A stretch of DNA of 64,000 bases from Malania oleifera (taxonomy: Eukaryota; Streptophyta; Magnoliopsida; Santalales; Ximeniaceae), in the NCBI RefSeq assembly GCF_029873635.1, contig NC_080423.1, positions 92,301,191 through 92,365,190 on the forward strand, in the 5' to 3' direction. The translations under genes and the position numbers were made by a program. The notes beneath the pieces were generated by a model. The model saw only the letters and a program-made list of their open reading frames with translations. It searched no databases and was not told the DNA's origin. Each line of letters begins with the position of its first letter. Within the stretch, counting starts at the first letter, position 1. Of the stretch, positions 21,254 to 64,000 are shown piece after piece.

Positions 21254-21439
21254 TTTGGGTGCCTAGTCTGAGGTTTGGGTGCTCGAATAGACTCAGTCAA
21301 AAAATCAATTTTTAAAGGTTCGGGCGCTCGAAGTTAGGGTTAGTTGACTGAACAAAAGTCAGAAGCATTCTGTTCAAGGTTCGGGTGCCTGGATATAAGT
21401 TCAGTCACCCGAGGCCTTTTTGAACGCAGTCGCTCGGGT
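21254..21439 (-). promoter_or_regulatory. palindrome array of LTR F (left part)
   Basis: Degenerate copies of TTCGGGCGCTCGAA / TTCAGTCRCCCGAA start at 21254, 21274, 21319, 21339, 21380, 21400 and 21425: pairs about 20 bp apart. They lie about 126 bp upstream of the minus-strand TATA. The array resumes at 23835 beyond the inserted LTR A. Confidence 0.5.
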
Positions 21440-21466
21440 TGGTGAAAAGTGCTCTGACACTTGTTC

Positions 21467-23169
21467 TGTAGAGACCCAAAGAATTATAGTAATTAAATAA
21501 TAAAAGAAATGAGAGAAAGAGGAATTTTTATAAAAGGGTACAGCAGGGCCTCGTCAACGAGTGTAGAAGTGCTCATCGACGAGCAGAATCTTGGGCTCGT
21601 CGACGGGGACGTGCATCTCGTCGATGAGAACTTACCAAGAGACCTGTTCTAGGGTCTAAAACTCGTCAATGAAGAGACGGTATTCATCCACGAGATCCCT
21701 TCATTGACTCGTCGACGAGGCGACGTGTCTCGTCGACAAGTCCACGTGGAAAAGCTTTCTATATGAAGCCTAAAACGGATTTTCAGTGAAAGAATTTTTC
21801 TCTCTCTCAGTTTCTCTCTCTAAAAATAGGTTTCTCTCACTTCTCTCTAGGTTTTCGGTTTCTTCTCTCCCCGGTTCTATGATCAAAAGCTACCATGGTG
21901 ATCCTGGGAAGATTCTCTACAACATAACCAGAGCAAAATGTTGATTTGAAAAGTTTGGAAACCATCCCAAAACTAGGGTAGGTGGATTATTTGAGTATTT
22001 CCAGTATTACCTAGTTCATTTGAGTTTAGATTTTGTATTATATAAGAATATACTAGAGTTTTATGAAGTAAAATCAGGGTATTATATTTTCAGGAATATG
22101 GTGTTTTGGGGACCTTGCAGGAGTGGGTTGAGGACCCCAGTGGATATATTTTCAAAAGCTCAGGTAAATGATGAATAGTTTATAATTCCGAAGATGGAAA
22201 AATGAAAAAAAATTCTAGGTATTTAGTTGATTGATAGGATATATATAATATTTTCAGGGTTATAAAATTATAAATGTCAAAGGTGTAATTTAGAACGTTA
22301 GTAGGCGAACTTAATTACGAGGTAAGGGAAATGTGCTATGTTAGGAATTTTAGTATAGTTATCAGCAGAAATTACATGTTTTACCAGATTATTATTATTC
22401 AGATTATAAAATATTTGTATAGTAGAAAATACAGATTTCAGAGCATGTGAATCTATTTATTTAAATCGTGTGGCATAAGCCATAACAGATTAATACAGTA
22501 ATTATACAGGTTACAGATACCATGTTTTACAGTATATTAGTAGAAAATGTTAGGTAATATATATGCTCTATAGAATGATAAATTTTCAGTATACATATAG
22601 ATAGAAATTTTACAGAATATTTAGAACCCTGATTTATATAATTTTCAAGATACCATGATTTACAGTATATGTATAGAAACATATATTTTTAACATTTTTC
22701 AGAATACCATCTTTTCAGAACCATAACACCTTGATTTTCAGATACTCAGACAGATATACAGATATTAAATATTCAGTCAGTTATTCAGATTTTCAGATTA
22801 GTTTTGTAGTATTATGGTTATTTCAAAATCATGGTAAAACAGTAATATATAAATATCAGTTACATATATATATAGTATCAGATCCTGATGGACCAGATTC
22901 AGTCAGCAGAGCACAGTACTGTAACTATTTTCAATTTAGAGTGCAACCACATAACTCTTATAGTATGTGAATTTTTAGCAGTCGATCGTGTCTATGTTGT
23001 AGATAGGCTCCCCGTCAGTTAGGGTTGAGAAGGCCGATCTGACTTTCGGAGTTCAGTTGACTTATTTTGGTCAGCCAACCAGTGATAGGTCCCGTCTGCG
23101 GGCCGCACAACCCTGTCATGAGGGGTTAAATCATGACTTTCAGTTATCAATCTAGGGAATTTTTCTTAA

Positions 23170-23211
<42 letters not shown>

Positions 23212-23832
23212 TTTACAGAAATCGTAGACATACCTATGAATATTAGCAGTATTATGAATAGAAAATTCAGAAAAATAATTTATGTTAAGTAACATAGATA
23301 TGAGCTATATTGTACATTATTTATACGTGTTTTCTCAGATTTTGTTATTTATGGTATTTTTAAATCAGATTTTATAAATATATAAACTCACCTACCACAC
23401 ACTAGTAATAGCATATTTCGTCTTACTGACCGTTGTCTCATCCCAGTGATTTAATATTTTTCAGGTGATCCAATTAGGCGAGTAGATCAGACTCGTAAGT
23501 AGAGGGGACCACTATACTGCCCTATCTGTAGGGTGAGTGTTTTTGGGAAATCATTTATGAGTAGTCTTTAGGTCCAGATGAGGGTATTTTGGGGAATGAC
23601 TATGTATGCATATTTTGGAAAAAATTCTAACACTCTCGTATTGTATATATTGACATGGTTGTATATATATTCTGCTTTCACGCTACATAGGTAGTTTATT
23701 GTATTTCAGATTCAACGGTTCCTATTTGAACCGTGATGGTGGTTTAGTTTTATGAGAAGGTATCAGAGTAGTGAAATTTTACAGTTTATATTTATATGAA
23801 AAAAAAATGGCATGAAAAATCAGGTCGTTACG
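21467..23832 (+). mobile_element. solo LTR A, nested in LTR F
   Basis: Begins TGTAGAGACCC and ends CAGGTCGTTACG; the family end is CAGGTCGTGACA. Exact 5-bp target duplication TGTTC at 21462-21466 and 23833-23837. 2366 bp, no coding sequence. In order: eight-copy TCGTCGACGA array, TATA (CTATATGA, 21759), CT-rich leader, AGGTAAGG-like words, an (AT)n run at about 23172-23208, the block CTTACTGACCGTTGTCTCATCCC (about 23422) and ATTTTTCAGG (about 23455). Together these mark a transcribed LTR. Confidence 0.8.
21551..21739 (+). promoter_or_regulatory. TCGTCGACGA palindrome array of LTR A (4+4)
   Basis: Eight copies start at 21551, 21573, 21597, 21618, 21663, 21684, 21709 and 21730. Spacings are 22, 24, 21, 45, 21, 25, 21. 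The TATA box follows 20 bp after the last copy. Several copies are imperfect (TCGTCAACGA, TCATCGACGA). Confidence 0.7.
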
Positions 23833-23834
23833 TG

Positions 23835-23958
23835 TTCAGTCGCTTGTGGACGGTAGGTTCATTTCTGGTTCGGTCGCCCAAAGCCAAGTTAAACCACTGA
23901 CTTTTTAGCAGTTCAGGCGCTAGAGGTGTTTTAAACACGAAGGATTCAGTTGCCCGAA
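23835..23958 (-). promoter_or_regulatory. palindrome array of LTR F (right part)
   Basis: Continues the F array after the inserted LTR A: TTCAGTCGCTTGTG (23835), TTCGGTCGCCCAAA (23869), a weak copy at 23889, TTCAGGCGCTAGAG (23912), TTCAGTTGCCCGAA (23945). Another, CGGTCGACCGAA, is near 24096. Confidence 0.45.
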
Positions 23959-42643: not shown

Positions 42644-42718
42644 ATTAATGTAAGAACCCGATTTGTGTTGTACGGGTTAATTATGTAAAAGGGGGGTAAA
42701 AAGGGAATTCTACAGACT

Positions 42719-42906
42719 TCGTCGACGAGGCCATAATTCGTTGACGAAGGCAGAAGGCTTCTTGTTGATGAAATTCAAAGGTTTGTCGACGAGGAAAAGC
42801 CGAGAGGTTTAGAAAAATTTAAATATCAGGGTTCGTCGACGAAATAGCTGCCTTGTCGACGAAATCCCTGAAGACTTCGTCGACGAGGACACAAATTCGT
42901 CGACGA
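42719..42906 (+). promoter_or_regulatory. TCGTCGACGA palindrome array of LTR C (4+4)
   Basis: Copies start at 42719, 42738, 42762, 42783, 42833, 42853, 42877 and 42897. Spacings are 19, 24, 21, 50, 20, 24, 20, nearly the same as in LTR A although the sequence between copies differs. The TATA-like word follows 20 bp later. Confidence 0.75.
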
Positions 42907-43816
42907 AGCCTCTCGGGTCAAAGGCTTTTAAAATATCTTTGGGGGTTGCTTTGGGGCTAAGTTTTCCCAAAAGCTCTCCCTCTCTCTCTAAAACTCTCCC
43001 TACACTCTCTCTCTCTAGTTTTGTTTGTTGATCGTTGCCCGATTCGTAAATCCATGGTTACTGCGAGGATCAGTAAAGGATTCTCTACGTTTCTAGCATA
43101 TCGAAATCTCGATTTGAGCATTTTCGGGTTTCGGGCTAAAATCGAGGTAAGGCTCGATTTTTATTTCTGATTCAGTAAATGTGTAGTAGTATGGATTGTA
43201 AGCATATACTGTACGGTGGTTTGTAGGTTTTGGAGCCTCGGTTCATAGTTTTGAGGACCGTAGAATTCATAGTTGGATTTCGGGTTAAGGTAAGGGGATT
43301 CTGTTTATATCAGTCCATTTTTGAAATCAGGATCGGTAAACTTGTGGGTTACGATCGTATGTATGTTATAACTACTTATTTGAAAAAATCTATCGGGTAA
43401 AACTACGGGATTTTTGGGTTACAATTTTTCGGGAAAATTGGGGATTTCGGGTATCATCTCTACTTTGTTTGGAAAACCATTTGTTTTGTTAAAACTATAT
43501 TATTGAGATGACTGTAATCCATATTTGCATAAACTGTATACTTGAAATTGTAATTGATATAATTTGCCGTAAATCAAATAAGTGTAGTATGTATGGATGT
43601 ATGAATTTGTTCCAGATATTTGTAAAACAGTTATGTGACGGCTAATTACTGTATGTTGAAATGTATAGGGACGTGAGTTCCAAAATGATTCCAGGTTTTG
43701 TGAAATTGGCTAGGGGTGGCTAATTACCGTATGCCGAGAGTGAGCGGCTTTATATTTGAGGGTGTGAAATATCACCATTTTAATTCCTGTTGGTCACCGA
43801 AGTGGTGTGAGCTATA

Positions 43817-47576: not shown

Positions 47577-48790
47577 GGTCTCATGAGTGGTGCTCATCAG
47601 ATGGGCCAATACTCTATTGAGTAGTGTTCGTTTTCTTGTTGCCTCGTGATTGGTGCTCATTAGATGGACCATTTTTTTTGTTGAATAGTGCTCGTCTCTT
47701 GTTGCCTTATAAGTGGTGCTCATTAGATGAACATTTTTAAGTATCATGAGTTGTGCTCATTAGATGGGCCAATTTTTTTGTTGAACAATGTCTGTTATGA
47801 GTAGTGCTCATTAGATGGGTGTAAAGATTGGCATGTTAACTTTTTGTTTTAATTAATCAATGTTACCTCGTTTCTACTGATCCCTTGATGTCTTTTCATA
47901 ATTTAGTTTCACATAAGCTAATGTCAAGTTTAATGTTGGGGTTTCTTTTAAATTATATCAGTTCCCCCCCCTACTATCGAGTCTTAGAGTAACCTTTTTG
48001 GCTCAAGATTATATTGCATTTACTATAAGTCCTTTTATTATCACGAGATTCTAATTAAATCATAAGATATACTTCTTTGGGTCTCATGAATGGTGCTCAT
48101 CAGATGGGCTAATACTTTACCGAGCAATGTTTGTTTCTTATTGCCTCATGAGTGATGCTTATTAAATGGACCAATTTTTGTTGAACAGTGTTCCTCTCTT
48201 GTTGCCTTATGAGTGGTGGTCATTAGATGAGCATTTTTGGTCTTATGAGTGGTGCTCATAGATGGACTAATTTTTTTTTTACGAGCAGTGCTCATATCTT
48301 GTTGCTTTATGTGTGATGCTTATTAAATGGACATTTTTGGGCTTCATGAACAATGCTCATCAGAAGGACCAATTTTTTACCAAGTAGGGTTTGCCTCTTG
48401 TCACCTTATGAACGGTATTCATCAAATGAGCATTGTTGGGTCTCATGAGTTATGCTCATTAGATGGGTCAACTTTTTATTAAACGGTGTCCATCTCTTAT
48501 TGCTTTATGAATAGTACTCATCAGATGGGCATTTTGGGCCTCATGAGTAGTGCTCATCAGGCAGGCCAATTTTTTGCCGAGTAGTATCTATCTTTTGTTG
48601 CCTTATAAGTGGTGCTCATTTGATGAGCATTTTTGGGCCTCATAAGTGGTGCTCATAAGATTTACTTGTTTCTTAATGCCTTATGAGCAATGCTCATCAA
48701 ATGGGCATTTTAGGGTCTCATGAGTGGTGATTATTAGATGGACTATGTCTCGGCAAGTAGAGCCCACTTCCTAGGTCGATTTTCCTAACA
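47577..48790 (-). repeat. minisatellite in the 3' region of the Tat-like Gypsy
   Basis: Degenerate tandem units with the core TGAGTGGTGCTCATYAGATG, repeated about every 50-60 bp and alternating so that two units give roughly 115 bp. The array is split: 47820-48090 repeats the LTR end and polypurine tract (a second copy of 47330-47570), so a block of about 0.5 kb was duplicated in tandem. The core is itself an inverted pair (TGAG...CTCA). Confidence 0.8.
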
Positions 48791-48817: not shown

Positions 48818-49097
48818 TTCATGCCATTCCTTTTTCTCCTATAAATAGTCACTCTCCCCTTTTGTTATTCTCCTCACTTGGAAGGGAAGTATTTGAAGGT
48901 ATGTTCCCTTACTTCTCCCTCAATGATTTCATTGGCATCCCTAGAATGTTTTCTCTTTAAATTTGATTTACTTTTTTTGTGGTGATAACCTCCTCCAAGT
49001 TGCTATATTTTTTAGCTCGCACTATTATTTATCTAATATTAGCTTTAGGTTTCTACCTTATGGAATTTATGAAGTCACAAGATTGTAGAGTTGTTGT
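48818..49097. other. internal remnant of the Tat-like Gypsy
   Basis: Contains a TATA-like CTATAAATAG near 48840 and CT-rich sequence; no coding sequence. It lies between the minisatellite and the left border of solo LTR D. Confidence 0.35.
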
Positions 49098-50674
49098 CAA
49101 GGTGTGACGTCCCAATTTTTGTACAAATTTTTTTTTTCAATAATAAATAAATAATCACGTCATCCACAACACACACAAATCGGCCACGTCAACAATCCTA
49201 CTATCATTTATACGACCCGACCCGCATTGGGTACCGGGTAAAAAGTTATTTTATTATACAACCTAACAGCGGAAGACAATATACACATATCAGTTAGAAT
49301 ACAATACCCAGAGTATCAATATACACATAAATACACAATACTATCTTATACCCAAAAATAATATAATCCTAGGGAATCACACCTCCCTAGTCAAAACTCA
49401 CCCTGTATCTCAAGGTCCCAACTCCTTATGATCACAGAGCTCTACTACCTAGCTTATCTTTGTCCCCTGAAAAATTTAGATAATTTGGGTGAGACACATC
49501 TCAGTAAGAAGGAATAAATTATTTACAGTGTGTAGTCATATGAGTACAATTATAATACACTTTACTTTTCAAATCATCATTTCATCTGAGAAAATACATT
49601 AATATACACATTCTCATGATCGTATAGATATACAACAAAAGTTTTTACAAGCTTTAAAATCATTTATCAAATTCAATGATTTCCAACACATATTTACCTG
49701 TGAAGTTCCTGAGAATAGGGAAGATTATCCGCCCATACAGGTAGCTTCCCTCTGCCCTAACACGTTATGCAATCGGGTATGACCACATTTGATACCTATC
49801 AGGGCACTCACCTTGCTCAGTAAGCCCTCAGGCGGAGAGTTTCACTTCGCCTCAATTATTTATATTATTAACTCACGCGGTTCCATTTCTCAATTTTATC
49901 ATTCTTTATTTCTCAATTTCCATTCTTTCTTTCATTTCTCATTTTAGCAAATTTTATCATTCTTTCACTTTTCATTTCCACTTTACTTTCCGGCTCATGA
50001 GTATCCTCGGTATCAAATACCAACATCACGTCTGTAACTCATGGCCACCCTGAGGATCTTTCTATACATGCCATGCTTCCCCCCATGGTCAAGGTTGTAC
50101 GGCCCGAAGGCTGGATCGAACCGCGGTTGGCCGACCTGGTTAAATCAAATATCATATCACATATCACGTCTGTAGTACGACTGGCCGGCCTAATACCCTG
50201 ATCAGGACTCAGGGGGCCCAACAACCTTACACAATGGCATAGTCGACTGTCATGCCACACGCTCCAAGAGTCCGTGTGGTTACACTAACACCACTCGCAA
50301 CGGTACCGTGCTCAATATCATAACCATCCAACAAGGTTTACCACCACATACCCACAATCATTACACGGTATTGACATTTCATCAATTATATTCCAGTATA
50401 TCACAATTCAGTTCAATATAAATATTCTCCTCATTTTCTATGCACATTTCATCATCTCGTAATATCATATATCATATTTCATGTATTTTTCACATTTTCC
50501 CAAAATACTCATATCCACAATTTGTACAAACTCATTTCTCATGCAAATAATTTCCACTCACAAATAAATACCACTTTTCATTATTTTCCAATATCAGTAA
50601 TTCACAAAATCTCATTTTCTAGGCAAAACATTGCATTTCGGAAGAGAAAAACAAAAAGGGGGAGTTTCAGGGCT

Positions 50675-50813
50675 TCGTCGACGAACACAAGTCTTCATCG
50701 ACGAGAAAATACCGAGAGAGGTTCCGGGGTAGCCTGAATTTCGTCGACGAACACAGGATCTCGTCGACGAAATTTGTGAAGGACTCGTCGACGAAGGTCG
50801 GGCTCGTCGACGA
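50675..50813 (+). promoter_or_regulatory. TCGTCGACGA palindrome array of LTR E (2+4)
   Basis: Copies start at 50675, 50695, 50741, 50761, 50785 and 50804. Spacings are 20, 46, 20, 24, 19: the same pattern as A and C with one pair missing from the first group. Five of six copies are perfect palindromes. TATA follows 9 bp later. Confidence 0.75.
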
Positions 50814-51383
50814 AATCCTGTTTTATAAGAATGAAAAATCCGGGAGAAATATCATATTTTTTTACGAAACCTCTCTCTCTCTCTCTACGGTTCTCTCTCC
50901 CTTCTCTCTACGTTTTCGGCCCCACCAGTCGTTAGATCGACGATCCGAAGTCACCACGATGCTCCTGGCGGAGTTCTCTCCAAATTTGCTAGAACAGATC
51001 ATGGGAGAAAGTTAGTTGGAAATCATCCCAAAGTTGAGGTAAGGCTTTTTAAGCCATATTTGGTATTGCGCTAGTTAGAAGAAATGTTGTGCGCATGAAA
51101 ATACTGAAGTTTAATACTAGGGGCTTTCAGTTTTGGAGTTTTGGTCAGGAAACCCATCATGTGTTAAACTTGAATGCCTTTGGGTGAAGACTTTCTACTC
51201 AATATGTGGGTTTTTGACAGTTGAGGAAAATATTGTATACTTAGAAATACTGAACTTTAATTCTGAGATTTTTCATTTTCAGGGTGTTAAGTTAGGAACC
51301 CTGCGGGTGCGAGACAGTTTTATTAGGGGCTTTCTAAGAATTAGGTAAGGGGATAAACTAAGCTAGTACTGTTTTGGAAAATG

Positions 51384-51595: not shown

Positions 51596-51870
51596 ACCGG
51601 CGTATGGGCCGAGATGTTTTCACATATATATATATATATATGTGTGATTTGCCGGCGTATGGGCTGTGTTATGTGATTTGTTGGGGTACGGGCCGTGCTA
51701 TGTGATTGTGATTGCCGATGTACGGGCCGTGCTATGAGATGTGATTTTCCGGCGTACGGGTCGTGCTATGTGATTACTGTTTGCTAGCGTACGAGTTGTG
51801 CTATGTGTAGCCAGCGTACGGGCCGAGCTATGTTAAAATGTGTAATACCGGCGTACGGACCGATGATTTT
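51596..51870 (+). repeat. GCCGGCGTACGGGCC minisatellite inside LTR E
   Basis: About eight degenerate units of the form GCCGGCGTACGGGCCGTGCT-ATGTGATT at 25-50 bp spacing, with an (AT)n run inside the first interval. The CCGGCGTACGG core is near-palindromic and rich in CpG. Confidence 0.75.
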
Positions 51871-60529: not shown

Positions 60530-60536
60530 TGATACT

Positions 60537-62351
60537 TGAAATTAGGAATAGTTTCCCAAGAGGGAGGTGAATTGGGATTTTAAAATTTATTTCCCTTTTT
60601 AATTCTATTATTTTATTACTTCAATTAATACTTAGATGTAACCACAAGATTAATAAACTCAACCAATGAATAAGATAATTAACCACTTAATCAATAATAA
60701 GAAAATTTGCTGAACTAGTATAAGCTTTGTGTTAAATAAAAACTCATGCACAATTCCTCCCAATATTAAGCTTTTAAACAAGCTTTCAGATTAATAAGTT
60801 AAGAATGATTAACCAATGTAGTCCCTTTCGGTTTCCGTAATCAATGTTGATCAATCCAAAACAAATTATCTTTCGGTTTATTTAACAACCAAATACTTAG
60901 TTTTTCAATTTTAGAACAACCACACAAATTGTAAATATCGCTGAAAAATAAAGAGCAGGGAAGAGAAAGAATAACACGAGACTTTTATGAGGTTCGGCTT
61001 CAACACAGCCTACGTCCTCGCCCTTGGCAAAACCTACCAAAGGATTCCACTATTTGCAGCTCCTTTACCGGGCGGAATAACACCGATTACAATCACTCCT
61101 TTGTTAAGGCTAGAGCCTGCCTTCTCCAAACAATATATCTGCGTTTGGTCATTGATCCAATAACCTGGAATTTTCCAAAATCTACAAGAGAAACAATAAG
61201 AAGATTGTGTACAAAGAACGCTCACACAAAGAGCAAGTTAGTACAATTCAAAACTATGTACTTTAAAAGATAAATATCAAGAATGAAATACACTTTTGAA
61301 GCTTAACAAAAATTTCACCAAACTCCCTTTTCTCCAGATGAGAAATCAGCAATATAACTTCAGGGATTGATGAACAACAATCTCAGAATCACAGCATTTT
61401 CAGTTTGCAAGAGATGAACAAGATGAGACTTTGAGAGCAAGAGAGCTTATGAGAGATTTTCAAAACTTGGTATATTTTGACTTAGAAGAACCATGTATTT
61501 ATAGGCAATCAGACTTGTTTCTTTGTTGCTAAAGTTTCCTTTGAGTGTTTCCTAAGATTTTAGAAAGTTTGGAGCCCAAGCAACTGTTATTTAAAATATT
61601 AAATTTTAAAAAAATTTGCCTGTTGAACAGTGTTCAGATGACTGAACACTTGAGTTTAGTCATCTGAGGTTTTTGAGTCGTAAAAAAAATGAACTGGACA
61701 CAGGGTCAAACGACCGAAGATGAGGTTCAGATGACCGAAGAGTCGGGTTCAGATGACCGAAGTCCAAGTTCAATCATCTGAACTGCTACTGCCTGTTTCT
61801 GTTTCCTCCCAGAAAATCTTCGGACGTCTGAACTTATTCTTCAGACGTTTGAAGATAATCTTCAGTCATCTAAAGTTGAAGTTCAGTCATCTGAACTGAC
61901 TTTCTTTTTTGAATTTTTCTCTTTTAGTGATAAAAACTGATTTGCTCTCTTTCTTTTAATCTTTATAAAACTTATTTCGGGAATTTTAGAAAATCTCTAA
62001 GTTCACATAATCCCCAAGAAAGCTTCAAAAGATATTTCAATAAATATTTAACCCTTGAAGTACTTACATTGGTTTTCCTAAAAATCTTATTTGCTAATCT
62101 TTGAGATCTTCCACTTCCTTTTTTGCTTTCGAAGTCCTTTGGATGTTTGCATGAGCTTGTTTTAGCTTCCCTTGCTTTGGTCAATATTAAGCTATATTAA
62201 GCTTCTTGTTGACTCTTCTTGAAGGTCATCTAACTTGATGGTCCACAATAATCTTTGTTTTCCTAAAACATCATAACTTAACTTTTTCAAGTTAAAATGT
62301 CCTTTGTTTGTTATCACCAAAACTGATTGCAAAAGCCTAGTTAGGCCAACA
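60537..62351 (-). mobile_element. solo LTR G (Copia-like)
   Basis: On the minus strand TGTTGGCCTAAC to CTAATTTCA; exact duplication ATACT (60532-60536, 62352-62356). 1815 bp. Shares with LTR F the CCCAAGAGGGRGGTGAATTGG-like end and the GTTCGGCTTCAACAC...CCTACGTCC...GGATTCCACT block. Minus-strand TATA (CCTATAAATAC, about 61495-61505) with the palindrome array upstream. No coding sequence. Confidence 0.8.
61633..61895 (-). promoter_or_regulatory. TTCAG-N4-CTGAA palindrome array of LTR G (2+4+4)
   Basis: 14-bp imperfect palindromes (TTCAGATGACTGAA, TTCAGTCATCTGAA, TTCGGACGTCTGAA and others) start at 61633, 61655, 61705, 61726, 61748, 61769, 61819, 61840, 61861 and 61882. Spacings are 22, 50, 21, 22, 21, 50, 21, 21, 21. 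The array lies about 128 bp upstream of the minus-strand TATA. Confidence 0.75.
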
Positions 62352-62355
62352 ATAC

Positions 62356-64000
62356 TGATGAATCGTTATTGTATAATTAATTTAATGATAACGGAATTTG
62401 AAAGTATGACATCCTTTTGAAACTCTCAAGGTGAGAGTAGTCACTGCAGTAGCGGGATTGTTCAATATTAAAAGGTTGGTAAACTAAATCAACATGGAAG
62501 AGTTAGTTAAGTTCAAAAGGATAATCAAAGGCTAATGATATACCATCAATTGATTGGGCGTATAAGAGGCGTTGATACCTTGACAATGATACCTTACTTT
62601 TGCATAATCGCACTCTTGAATTCTATTTTGATTACGTTAAGTAGGATTATTAATTCAGGAACTTTTGACTTATGACTCTTATTTAGAGGGGTTATCCACT
62701 TGAAGTTTGTTACAAGTGGGAAGTTTTGTGTTGAGGGCTCACGGTGTAATTTAATTGTATTATCATGTAAGTGTATATTGGGGTTTCCATATTGGGGTTA
62801 TATATACATATTATAGCCAAGGGTTAAAACTCTAAGGCAATTTTCATTTGATGATAGTGGAAATTGCGTATGGGTTCTGTGGACATAGGCAAATTATCGA
62901 ACCACGTAAATTCATTATTTTTCTTATCTCTTTTTGAGATTTATTTGTTTTTCGTATTTGGTGTGTGTGCGCGCGTGTGCATAACCTTAGGGCGTGATTT
63001 CACAACAATTGGTATCAAAGCACCAGGTTCATGCTAGTTTTTTCTAGGGTTTGCTTCTGGATTGTACCAAGGATGAGCGAGATGAAAACTAGATTCGAAA
63101 AGTTCAATGGTAGAGGGAACGTTAGCTTGTGGCAGATGCGAGTGATTGATTTGTTGGTTGAACAAAAGGTTTATAGGCTTTGACAAGAAAGAAATTAGAG
63201 AATATTGATGAAGATGATCGGATGGAACTAGAATTGATCGCTTTCTGTACTATCTGATCTTGTTTGGCAGATTCTATAATATTCTATGTGACAGAGGGGA
63301 AAATTGTCAAGGGTTTATGGATGAGTTGGAAATCCCGTATATGTTGAAGAGAATACTAACAAATTGCTCTTGAAAAATTCATTTTTGATTTCTTCATATG
63401 CTTGAGGATGAAGATCTAAATCAACATATGAATCAATCCAATCAGATTATCAATGGTTTGCTCAAAGTGGATGTGAGGATTGGCGATGGAGATAAAATTT
63501 TGATGTCGTTATCAACCCTTCCTTCTTCTTCTGAACATCTGGTTATGAAACTACTCTTGGGAAATCCATTTTAAGTTATGAAGAGGTTTTTGGGGTTCTT
63601 AGGTCAAATGAGACTAGAAGAAAACTCAACAAAGAGGATAATGAATTAGGGGGCTTGGTTGCCAAGGCCGAACATAGGAGAGGGAGATCCTAGGAGAAGT
63701 ATACCCAGAGGTGCAAATCGAAGTCTAGATCAAAGGCCAAGAAGTTAAGGGGTGTCATTAGCAGGATTGTCCTTTTTGGAAGAAAGAGGAAGACAAGAAA
63801 TACCGCCCTTCAAGCTTTGTAAGTGTGGTTACAGATAGTTCAGACAACGAAGAGCTCTTGCTTGTTGCTTTAGGTAACAATTTTTTTTAGGATACTTAGA
63901 CTATGGATTCTGGTTGTTCCTTTCATTATTTGCCCATATAGGGTGTGGTTTGATACTTACTGGGAATGTGATGATGGATCAGTAGGGTGATCATCCTTGT
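62356..64000 (+). mobile_element. Ty1/Copia (Tork-like) fossil, 5' part, runs off the window
   Basis: The 5' LTR ends CACAACA at 63007; the primer-binding site TGGTATCAAAGCA is at 63010-63022. The LTR contains GTGGACATAGGCAAATTATCGAACCACG, as Tnt1/Tork LTRs do in similar form. Gag starts near 63073 (MSEMKTRFEKFNGRGNVSLW) and the start of the protease (DSGCSFHYLP) is near 63900. Several interruptions are present; the copy is broken. The LTR start is probably near 62356, next to the MITE/LTR G insertion point. Confidence 0.75.
63010..63022 (+). other. Copia primer-binding site (initiator tRNA-Met)
   Basis: TGGTATCAAAGCA, two bases after the LTR end CACAACA. Confidence 0.8.

Follow-up and report, generated by a model that had tools for sequence, protein, structure and literature searches.

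Repeated boxes in the U3 region of Tnt1-type tobacco elements differ between subfamilies and drive the promoter. Sireviruses are defined by a primer-binding-site (PBS) junction, a polypurine tract and a C-rich integrase signal, and palindromic repeated motifs ("RM boxes") were described in 2010 for 13 elements, in which they precede the TATA box (PMC2829016, in the part available). These high-copy U3 boxes carry a CGG-CCG signature in 12 of the 13 elements, Tnd-1 being the exception, and they vary from one element to another with their symmetry kept, as in GTCGGACGTCCGAC of Usier and CGGTCGACCG of Vitis. The available part of that paper yielded nothing on step length, grouping or an in-place switch of cores, and the word "spacing" occurs there only in a reference title. 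The LTRs of the maize elements Ji, Opie and Giepum have a palindrome-rich cis region of high sequence variability, for which the accessible sections of two papers stress small RNAs and secondary structure (PMC5311732, PMC10760457). In the VANDAL transposons of Arabidopsis, arrays of short motifs also lie in non-coding parts, the type of motif differs between related elements, and coevolution with a sequence-specific protein, the element-encoded VANC, has been invoked (PMC5735166, in the portion seen).

The palindromic box array as an object is already known from the RM boxes. The array considered here lies in LTR G of the window, by which we mean the whole 64,000-nucleotide stretch of Malania oleifera DNA that was analysed (positions 92,301,191-92,365,190 of contig NC_080423.1; Table 1). 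LTR G has TG...CA ends and is flanked on both sides by the 5-bp duplication ATACT. A preliminary description of the window had reported ten 14-mers with steps of 22-50-21-22-21-50-21-21-21, and these are found exactly, at 61633-61895. It had also given the motif as TTCAG-N4-CTGAA, a form that is exact in two of the ten boxes; the set fits better as near-palindromes of the type TTCRG-N4-CYGAA, from which five boxes show no mismatch, three show one and two show two. The reported distance of 128 bp between array and promoter is likewise correct, the TATA box CTATAAATA starting 128 bp beyond the array (in LTR-sense numbering the array occupies 457-719 and the TATA box begins at 848). An RM-box element is expected to have eight or more palindromic boxes in U3 ahead of its TATA box, and LTR G has ten. 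Most of them read CAG...CTG, in contrast to the CGG...CCG of the described RM boxes; no box carries the CGG-CCG signature on both sides, and four carry it on one side (61705, 61726, 61748 and 61819). When the 263-bp array was shuffled 5,000 times with its dinucleotides kept, the number of matches at up to two mismatches averaged 0.59 and never exceeded 5, against the 10 observed, and 2,000 shuffles of the whole of LTR G gave a mean of 2.7 and a maximum of 10 against 12 observed. Taken with the reversed-pattern controls given below, these shuffles rule out a chance origin of the arrays. Coincidence with a CpG island was considered as a further RM-box trait: the observed-to-expected CpG ratio is 0.93 over the array and drops to 0.00 across the 300 bp that follow, with values of 0.9-1.1 also in parts of U5 and a G+C content of only 0.44.

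Table 1. Coordinates, in the window, of LTR G with its boxes and signals and of the three TCGTCGACGA arrays. Slashes set off the steps between groups.
Feature	Positions	Strand	Basis
Target-site duplication ATACT, left of LTR G	60532..60536		
Solo LTR G, assigned to a Sirevirus (Copia) family, 1815 bp, TGTTGGCC...TTTCA	60537..62351	-	ends and target-site duplication
C-rich integrase signal CCAATTCACCTCCCTCTTGGGA in LTR G	60554..60575	-	
TATA box CTATAAATA of LTR G, 128 bp from array	61496..61504	-	
Box TTCAGATGACTGAA, TATA-proximal pair	61633..61646		
Box TTTAGTCATCTGAG, second of TATA-proximal pair	61655..61668		
36-bp spacer, pair / middle quartet	61669..61704		
Box GTCAAACGACCGAA, middle quartet	61705..61718		
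Box TTCAGATGACCGAA, middle quartet, first copy	61726..61739		
Box TTCAGATGACCGAA, middle quartet, second copy	61748..61761		
Box TTCAATCATCTGAA, middle quartet	61769..61782		
36-bp spacer, middle / distal quartet	61783..61818		
Box TTCGGACGTCTGAA, distal quartet	61819..61832		
Box TTCAGACGTTTGAA, distal quartet	61840..61853		
Box TTCAGTCATCTAAA, distal quartet	61861..61874		
Box TTCAGTCATCTGAA, distal quartet	61882..61895		
Target-site duplication ATACT, right of LTR G	62352..62356		
TCGTCGACGA array in LTR C, 4/45/4, steps 22,24,21/45/21,25,21	21550..21740		
TCGTCGACGA array, 4/50/4, steps 19,24,21/50/20,24,20	42718..42907		
TCGTCGACGA array, 2/46/4, steps 20/46/20,24,19	50674..50814		

The family to which LTR G belongs was collected with the TATA/U5 part of the LTR as query. 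From 8,099 first-look candidates 40 were scored, namely the window copy and 39 others at 90-92% identity, and 30 loci, the window's own included, make up the G-family sample. The Sirevirus criterion for the PBS was an LTR end/PBS junction CA/ATTGG together with TATCAGAGC; the solo LTR of the window lacks such a junction, and CA/ATTGGTATC is present in six of the 30 loci (L022, where the junction reads TATCAAAGC, L027, L028, L031, where the match sits past another LTR end, L034 and L038). A C-rich integrase signal, located some 20 bp from the end of the LTR, occurs in the window LTR and, by a strict pattern, in 17 of the 30 loci. The LTR start could be located in 11 of the 30: it is preceded by the polypurine tract AGGGGGAG-AT/TG in L024 and L031 and by a shorter variant in L029, and the remaining eight have unrelated flanks, as expected for solo or 5' LTRs. 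Furthermore, L088, an internal piece lying between the two G-type LTRs of one element, contains gag_pre-integrs and rve followed by RVT_2 (E 5.9e-69), which is the Copia-type pol order with integrase ahead of RVT_2. The G family thus has the PBS junction, polypurine tract and C-rich signal of the RM-box elements, and by these hallmarks LTR G is classified as the solo LTR of a Sirevirus. By the same hallmarks its array counts among the palindromic RM boxes known since 2010.

The layout of the array recurs well beyond the window. The reading in the preliminary description depended on other G-family LTRs carrying the array with a preferred spacing, and they do: in the 30 copies, 225 of 294 steps measure 20-22 bp and 52 measure 49-53 bp. 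Corresponding counts are 89 and 20 of 124 steps in the arrays of L001-L016 (leaving out L002, which overlaps L001), 127 and 30 of 178 in those of L047-L066, and 44 and 13 of 77 when each of 11 clusters is represented by one array. The reversed motif gave no arrays in the fetched loci. In the 1.49-Gb (1,494-Mb) genome the exact motif TTCAGN4CTGAA was counted 31,681 times and its reversed pattern 1,557 times, and the excess is far greater for pairs of motifs, with 5,244 against 4 at distances of 1-31 bp and 3,160 against 1 at 31-61 bp. Among the 50 distinct pairs listed, which are the first ones on contig C1, 33 are spaced at 20-23 bp, three at 29-30 bp and 14 at 41-44 bp, which is two steps; none of these 50 falls at 15-19, 24-28 or 31-40 bp. 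The gaps between Sirevirus box groups are mostly 50-51 bp, and inner groups with a gap on both sides hold four boxes in 12 of 13 instances, a count that omits 17 of 39 arrays as too ambiguous to parse. The group on the TATA side often has two boxes and the distal group four to seven. Where a TATA box was found, it lies 124-129 bp away in 19 of 26 arrays and 94 bp away in three. Since this layout is common to the Sireviruses by descent it amounts to one observation rather than many; the copies are old, and much of the scatter is decay. The classical form TTCGGN4CCGAA is also enriched genome-wide (22,419 against 1,471), which means that one genome holds several box alphabets side by side. The CGG-CCG signature is not a defining feature of the genus Sirevirus.

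When arrays of different Sirevirus subfamilies are read in LTR sense, they have recognisably the same linkers and spacers (gaatttc, box, gattaag, box, 36-bp spacer) and differ in the cores of their boxes. Four core classes were named by eye: ACGT/ATGA-like, to which G itself belongs, AAGA/TCGT, TNGC/GCGC and TTGA/TCAA. Core positions 6 and 9, which flank the central dinucleotide, were compared in 23 of the 39 arrays and have an identity of 0.84 within classes and 0.27 across them, a contrast that is partly built in by drawing the classes from the cores. Orthologous comparison of linkers and spacers in the same arrays gives 0.80 within and 0.67 between classes, with mean linker identities of 0.64-0.73 for the individual class pairs, and in 178 of 184 between-class pairs the linkers agree better than the core does. 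Class-free tests do not share the built-in contrast, although their array pairs are not independent: in 37 arrays, N4 cores are 0.751 alike within arrays and 0.583 between (0 of 300 permutations), and linkers show a slight excess, 0.514 against 0.501 (18 of 300 permutations). Where linker identity is 0.75-0.80, core identity has a spread of 0.22, about twice the binomial 0.11 (over 206 of 741 pairs, those that pass a size filter). The cores of an array have thus changed together on a skeleton that stayed in place, as two pairs of loci illustrate: L013 and L052 agree at 65/76 linker positions and 68/80 outer-arm positions and at 5/16 in the core, and L051 and L059 have identities of 0.81 in linkers, 0.94 in arms and 0.20 in the core. 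Transversions (A to T, A/T to C) are among the core changes, which therefore are not due to CpG decay alone.

Boxes might come to resemble one another by recombination with no reader at all, through slippage, unequal crossing-over, gene conversion or template switching during reverse transcription, and the arrays do bear marks of such events. A whole quartet with a 37-bp spacer stands in tandem copies in L059 (G000:C1:8573000-8576300), which shows that arrays can be enlarged module by module. L055 has a flank that falls in the class-1 clade (with L049) and an array like that of L059 (core 18/20, linkers 92/121), and exchange of arrays between lineages by recombination appears to explain at least this one case. 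Motif evolution by tandem repeat formation is also what the consulted part of the VANDAL study describes (PMC5735166). Nevertheless, linkers that are nearly unrelated from unit to unit within an array are orthologous across core classes. That they were not carried along with the cores argues against tandem duplication, slippage and ordinary gene conversion; conversion would need to be confined to about 14 bp per unit. Duplication of single units as the source of box likeness gets no support from the linkers either, the one module duplication in L059 notwithstanding. We consider homogenisation without a reader unlikely. A shared mechanism that creates and keeps arrays, the first of two options in the preliminary description, is not needed for the change of cores, though L059 does show one duplication of a quartet with its spacer. 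On a tree of the flanks of 35 of the 39 arrays, the four class labels need 7 changes, where 3 is the least possible and 16.3 the mean after shuffling, and starred branches force at least three changes for class 2 and two for class 4; the tree warns of long branches, and the changes on it give no count of independent switches.

The palindromes could also matter as RNA (or cruciform) hairpins that supply small-RNA silencing or have themselves been shaped by it. The palindrome-rich regions of maize Ji, Opie and Giepum are small-RNA hotspots according to the available parts of two papers citing Bousios et al. 2016 (PMC5311732, PMC10760457). In such a hairpin, N4 would be the free 4-nt loop of a 5-bp stem, yet it is this N4 that stays uniform inside an array and changes from one array to another. 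Arm changes compensated by a second change, counted over 369 units, do not exceed expectation at four of five positions (0 against 2.2, 0 against 0.1, 6 against 8.1 and 2 against 3.2) and are in mild excess at positions 4/11 (8 against 4.0), in a test that is weak because many of the changes are post-insertion decay. A hairpin function as the main explanation is in our judgement improbable; exploitation of hairpins by the host is compatible with the arm and core results. In contrast to the emphasis in the maize studies, the turnover of cores on a fixed skeleton suggests that the boxes are read as DNA.

The second option of the preliminary description, one protein class of changing specificity, is the better supported inside the Sireviruses, where the cores change together and the linkers are orthologous. 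We favour with moderate confidence a model in which a shifting sequence-specific reader binds the Sirevirus boxes as dimers in cooperative quartets and controls the LTR promoter. The array of LTR G would be a U3 regulatory array, corresponding to the RM boxes of Bousios et al. 2010, with each 14-bp box a putative binding site for a DNA-binding factor that is probably a dimer. At a spacing of about two helical turns, the dimers bound to a group would lie on one face of the DNA, and four boxes to a group would allow cooperative binding; the assembled complex may then set the activity or the methylation state of the downstream promoter. The specificity of the factor, or the paralogue used, would have shifted between Sirevirus subfamilies, and the boxes of an array would have followed by base changes in place. 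We infer the factor, its binding as a dimer, the cooperativity and the promoter effect from the pattern of the boxes. Phasing applies to the steps within groups; the 50-bp gaps are out of helical phase (50/10.5 = 4.8 turns) and speak against it.

The preliminary description set LTR G beside LTRs A, C and E, which are taken here to be the window's three TCGTCGACGA arrays. Pairs of TCGTCGACGA are strongly over-represented genome-wide (20,830 against 0 and 27,879 against 1 in reversed controls), and of 130 steps in 20 fetched loci, 64 measure 19-21 bp, 32 measure 23-25 bp and 25 measure 44-51 bp. Of 23 arrays, 17 fill at least seven of the eight slots of a template made of two 20-24-20 quartets with a gap of about 46; a long-short-long control, equally free to search gap length, is filled as well by 3, and a plain ladder, which lacked that freedom, by none. 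Consistent with this template, triples of steps run short-long-short in 41 cases and long-short-long in two. A simple count of groups was abandoned for these arrays, as it gave one-unit inner groups in seven cases and a missed unit (44-46) mimics a gap. LTR C itself (21467-23832) is a solo LTR with the duplication TGTTC and a terminal CG in place of CA, and TTTGGTATCAGAG or a close variant follows the 3' end in 5 of 20 copies of its family. Downstream of one such copy, at 2.4-4.2 kb, RT_RNaseH is followed by Integrase_H2C2 (in two of three pieces searched). RT_RNaseH ahead of integrase is the Gypsy order, and from these domains, which lie beside a copy of the family, the TCGTCGACGA LTRs are taken to be of Gypsy type. 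The TATA orientation of the Gypsy-type arrays was assigned automatically and is rough, with a TATA-like word in 18 of 23; for LTR C it gave the minus strand, which the PBS after the plus-strand end contradicts.

LTR G and the TCGTCGACGA LTRs are thus of separate families, as had been proposed, and indeed of different superfamilies, Copia (Sirevirus) and Gypsy type. The proposal that grouping in fours and steps of 21 and 50 bp recur in both holds as far as quartets with roughly two-turn steps go; in detail the plans differ, with gaps of 50-51 bp and even steps of 21 in the Sireviruses and gaps of about 46 bp and steps of 20-24-20 in the TCGTCGACGA type. A universal 21/50 rule is rejected, because 20-24-20 with a 46-bp gap describes the Gypsy-type arrays better. 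As judged from their arrays, then, two superfamilies share quartets at two-turn steps and differ in boxes, gaps and TATA distances, a likeness that is a single comparison between two lineages. A third array in the window, of ATGAG-N5-CTCAT 15-mers at 47583-48734 with CTATAAATA at 48839, departs clearly from this plan, most of its steps being 36/37 or 61-63 bp, and the plan therefore does not hold for every array. The whole might be no more than ancestry, the arrays being old and decaying Sirevirus furniture, the class differences ancestral polymorphism plus recombination, and the Gypsy likeness a coincidence. One skeleton common to all Sirevirus arrays, the comparison of only two lineages and the different plan of the third array all fit this account, but coherence of cores at some ten sites within an array needs more than drift, and so does the excess of paired motifs (5,244 against 4; 20,830 against 0; 27,879 against 1). 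Ancestry by itself is a very unlikely explanation. A wider form of the reader model is tentative, and we regard it as doubtful though conceivable: a plant DNA-binding protein family, host or element encoded, would read helically phased palindrome quartets in both Copia Sirevirus and Gypsy LTRs, each lineage tracking its own member and its arrays being recoded box by box whenever the reader changes, in a key-and-lock arms race.

VANC of the VANDAL transposons would be the closest analogue of the proposed reader system. There are two differences, as far as the portion of PMC5735166 consulted goes. VANDAL motifs accumulate by tandem repeat formation, whereas Sirevirus units change in place and their linkers stay; and VANC is an element-encoded anti-silencing protein that binds its motif and removes methylation, whereas the carriers here are LTR retrotransposons, which are not known to encode a reader. 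No report of the step length, the quartets or in-place core switching was found in the literature searched, of which Bousios et al. 2016 may contain some. Relative to the print found, the additions are the layout, the switching of cores against kept linkers, and an argument that favours one shifting reader. What reads the Sirevirus palindromes has been a question since 2010. Fixed spacing and grouping now define a target for the search, namely a factor that occupies four boxes at a time with two turns from box to box; the core classes that occur naturally on a common skeleton offer a ready-made test of its specificity. If a single shifting reader exists, plant LTR promoters would have many sites recoded together with the intervening DNA not copied, and a similar architecture would have been reached in two retrotransposon superfamilies.

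Several smaller observations concern the surroundings of these arrays. Directly to the right of LTR G lies a Copia-like element (62352-63030) with a PBS-like ATTGGTATCAAAGC around 63010, and LTR G may have inserted into an LTR of this element. A Sirevirus-like LTR with decayed boxes of the TTCGGNCGNCCGAA type (21274-21446 and 23835-23958) is split inside its box array by LTR C. LTR elements often target palindromes, according to the title of one paper, and the position of LTR C fits such targeting (PMC6911290). The pentamer ACAGG/CCTGT, picked out from many k-mers, is over-represented in the linkers and spacers of both array types, for example in ACACAGGG, with counts of 7 against 1.6 and 9 against 2.0 expected from shuffling. 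Finally, tandem GC-rich repeats with CCGGCGTACGGGCCG units lie at 51643-51807, downstream of the TCGTCGACGA array that begins at 50674.
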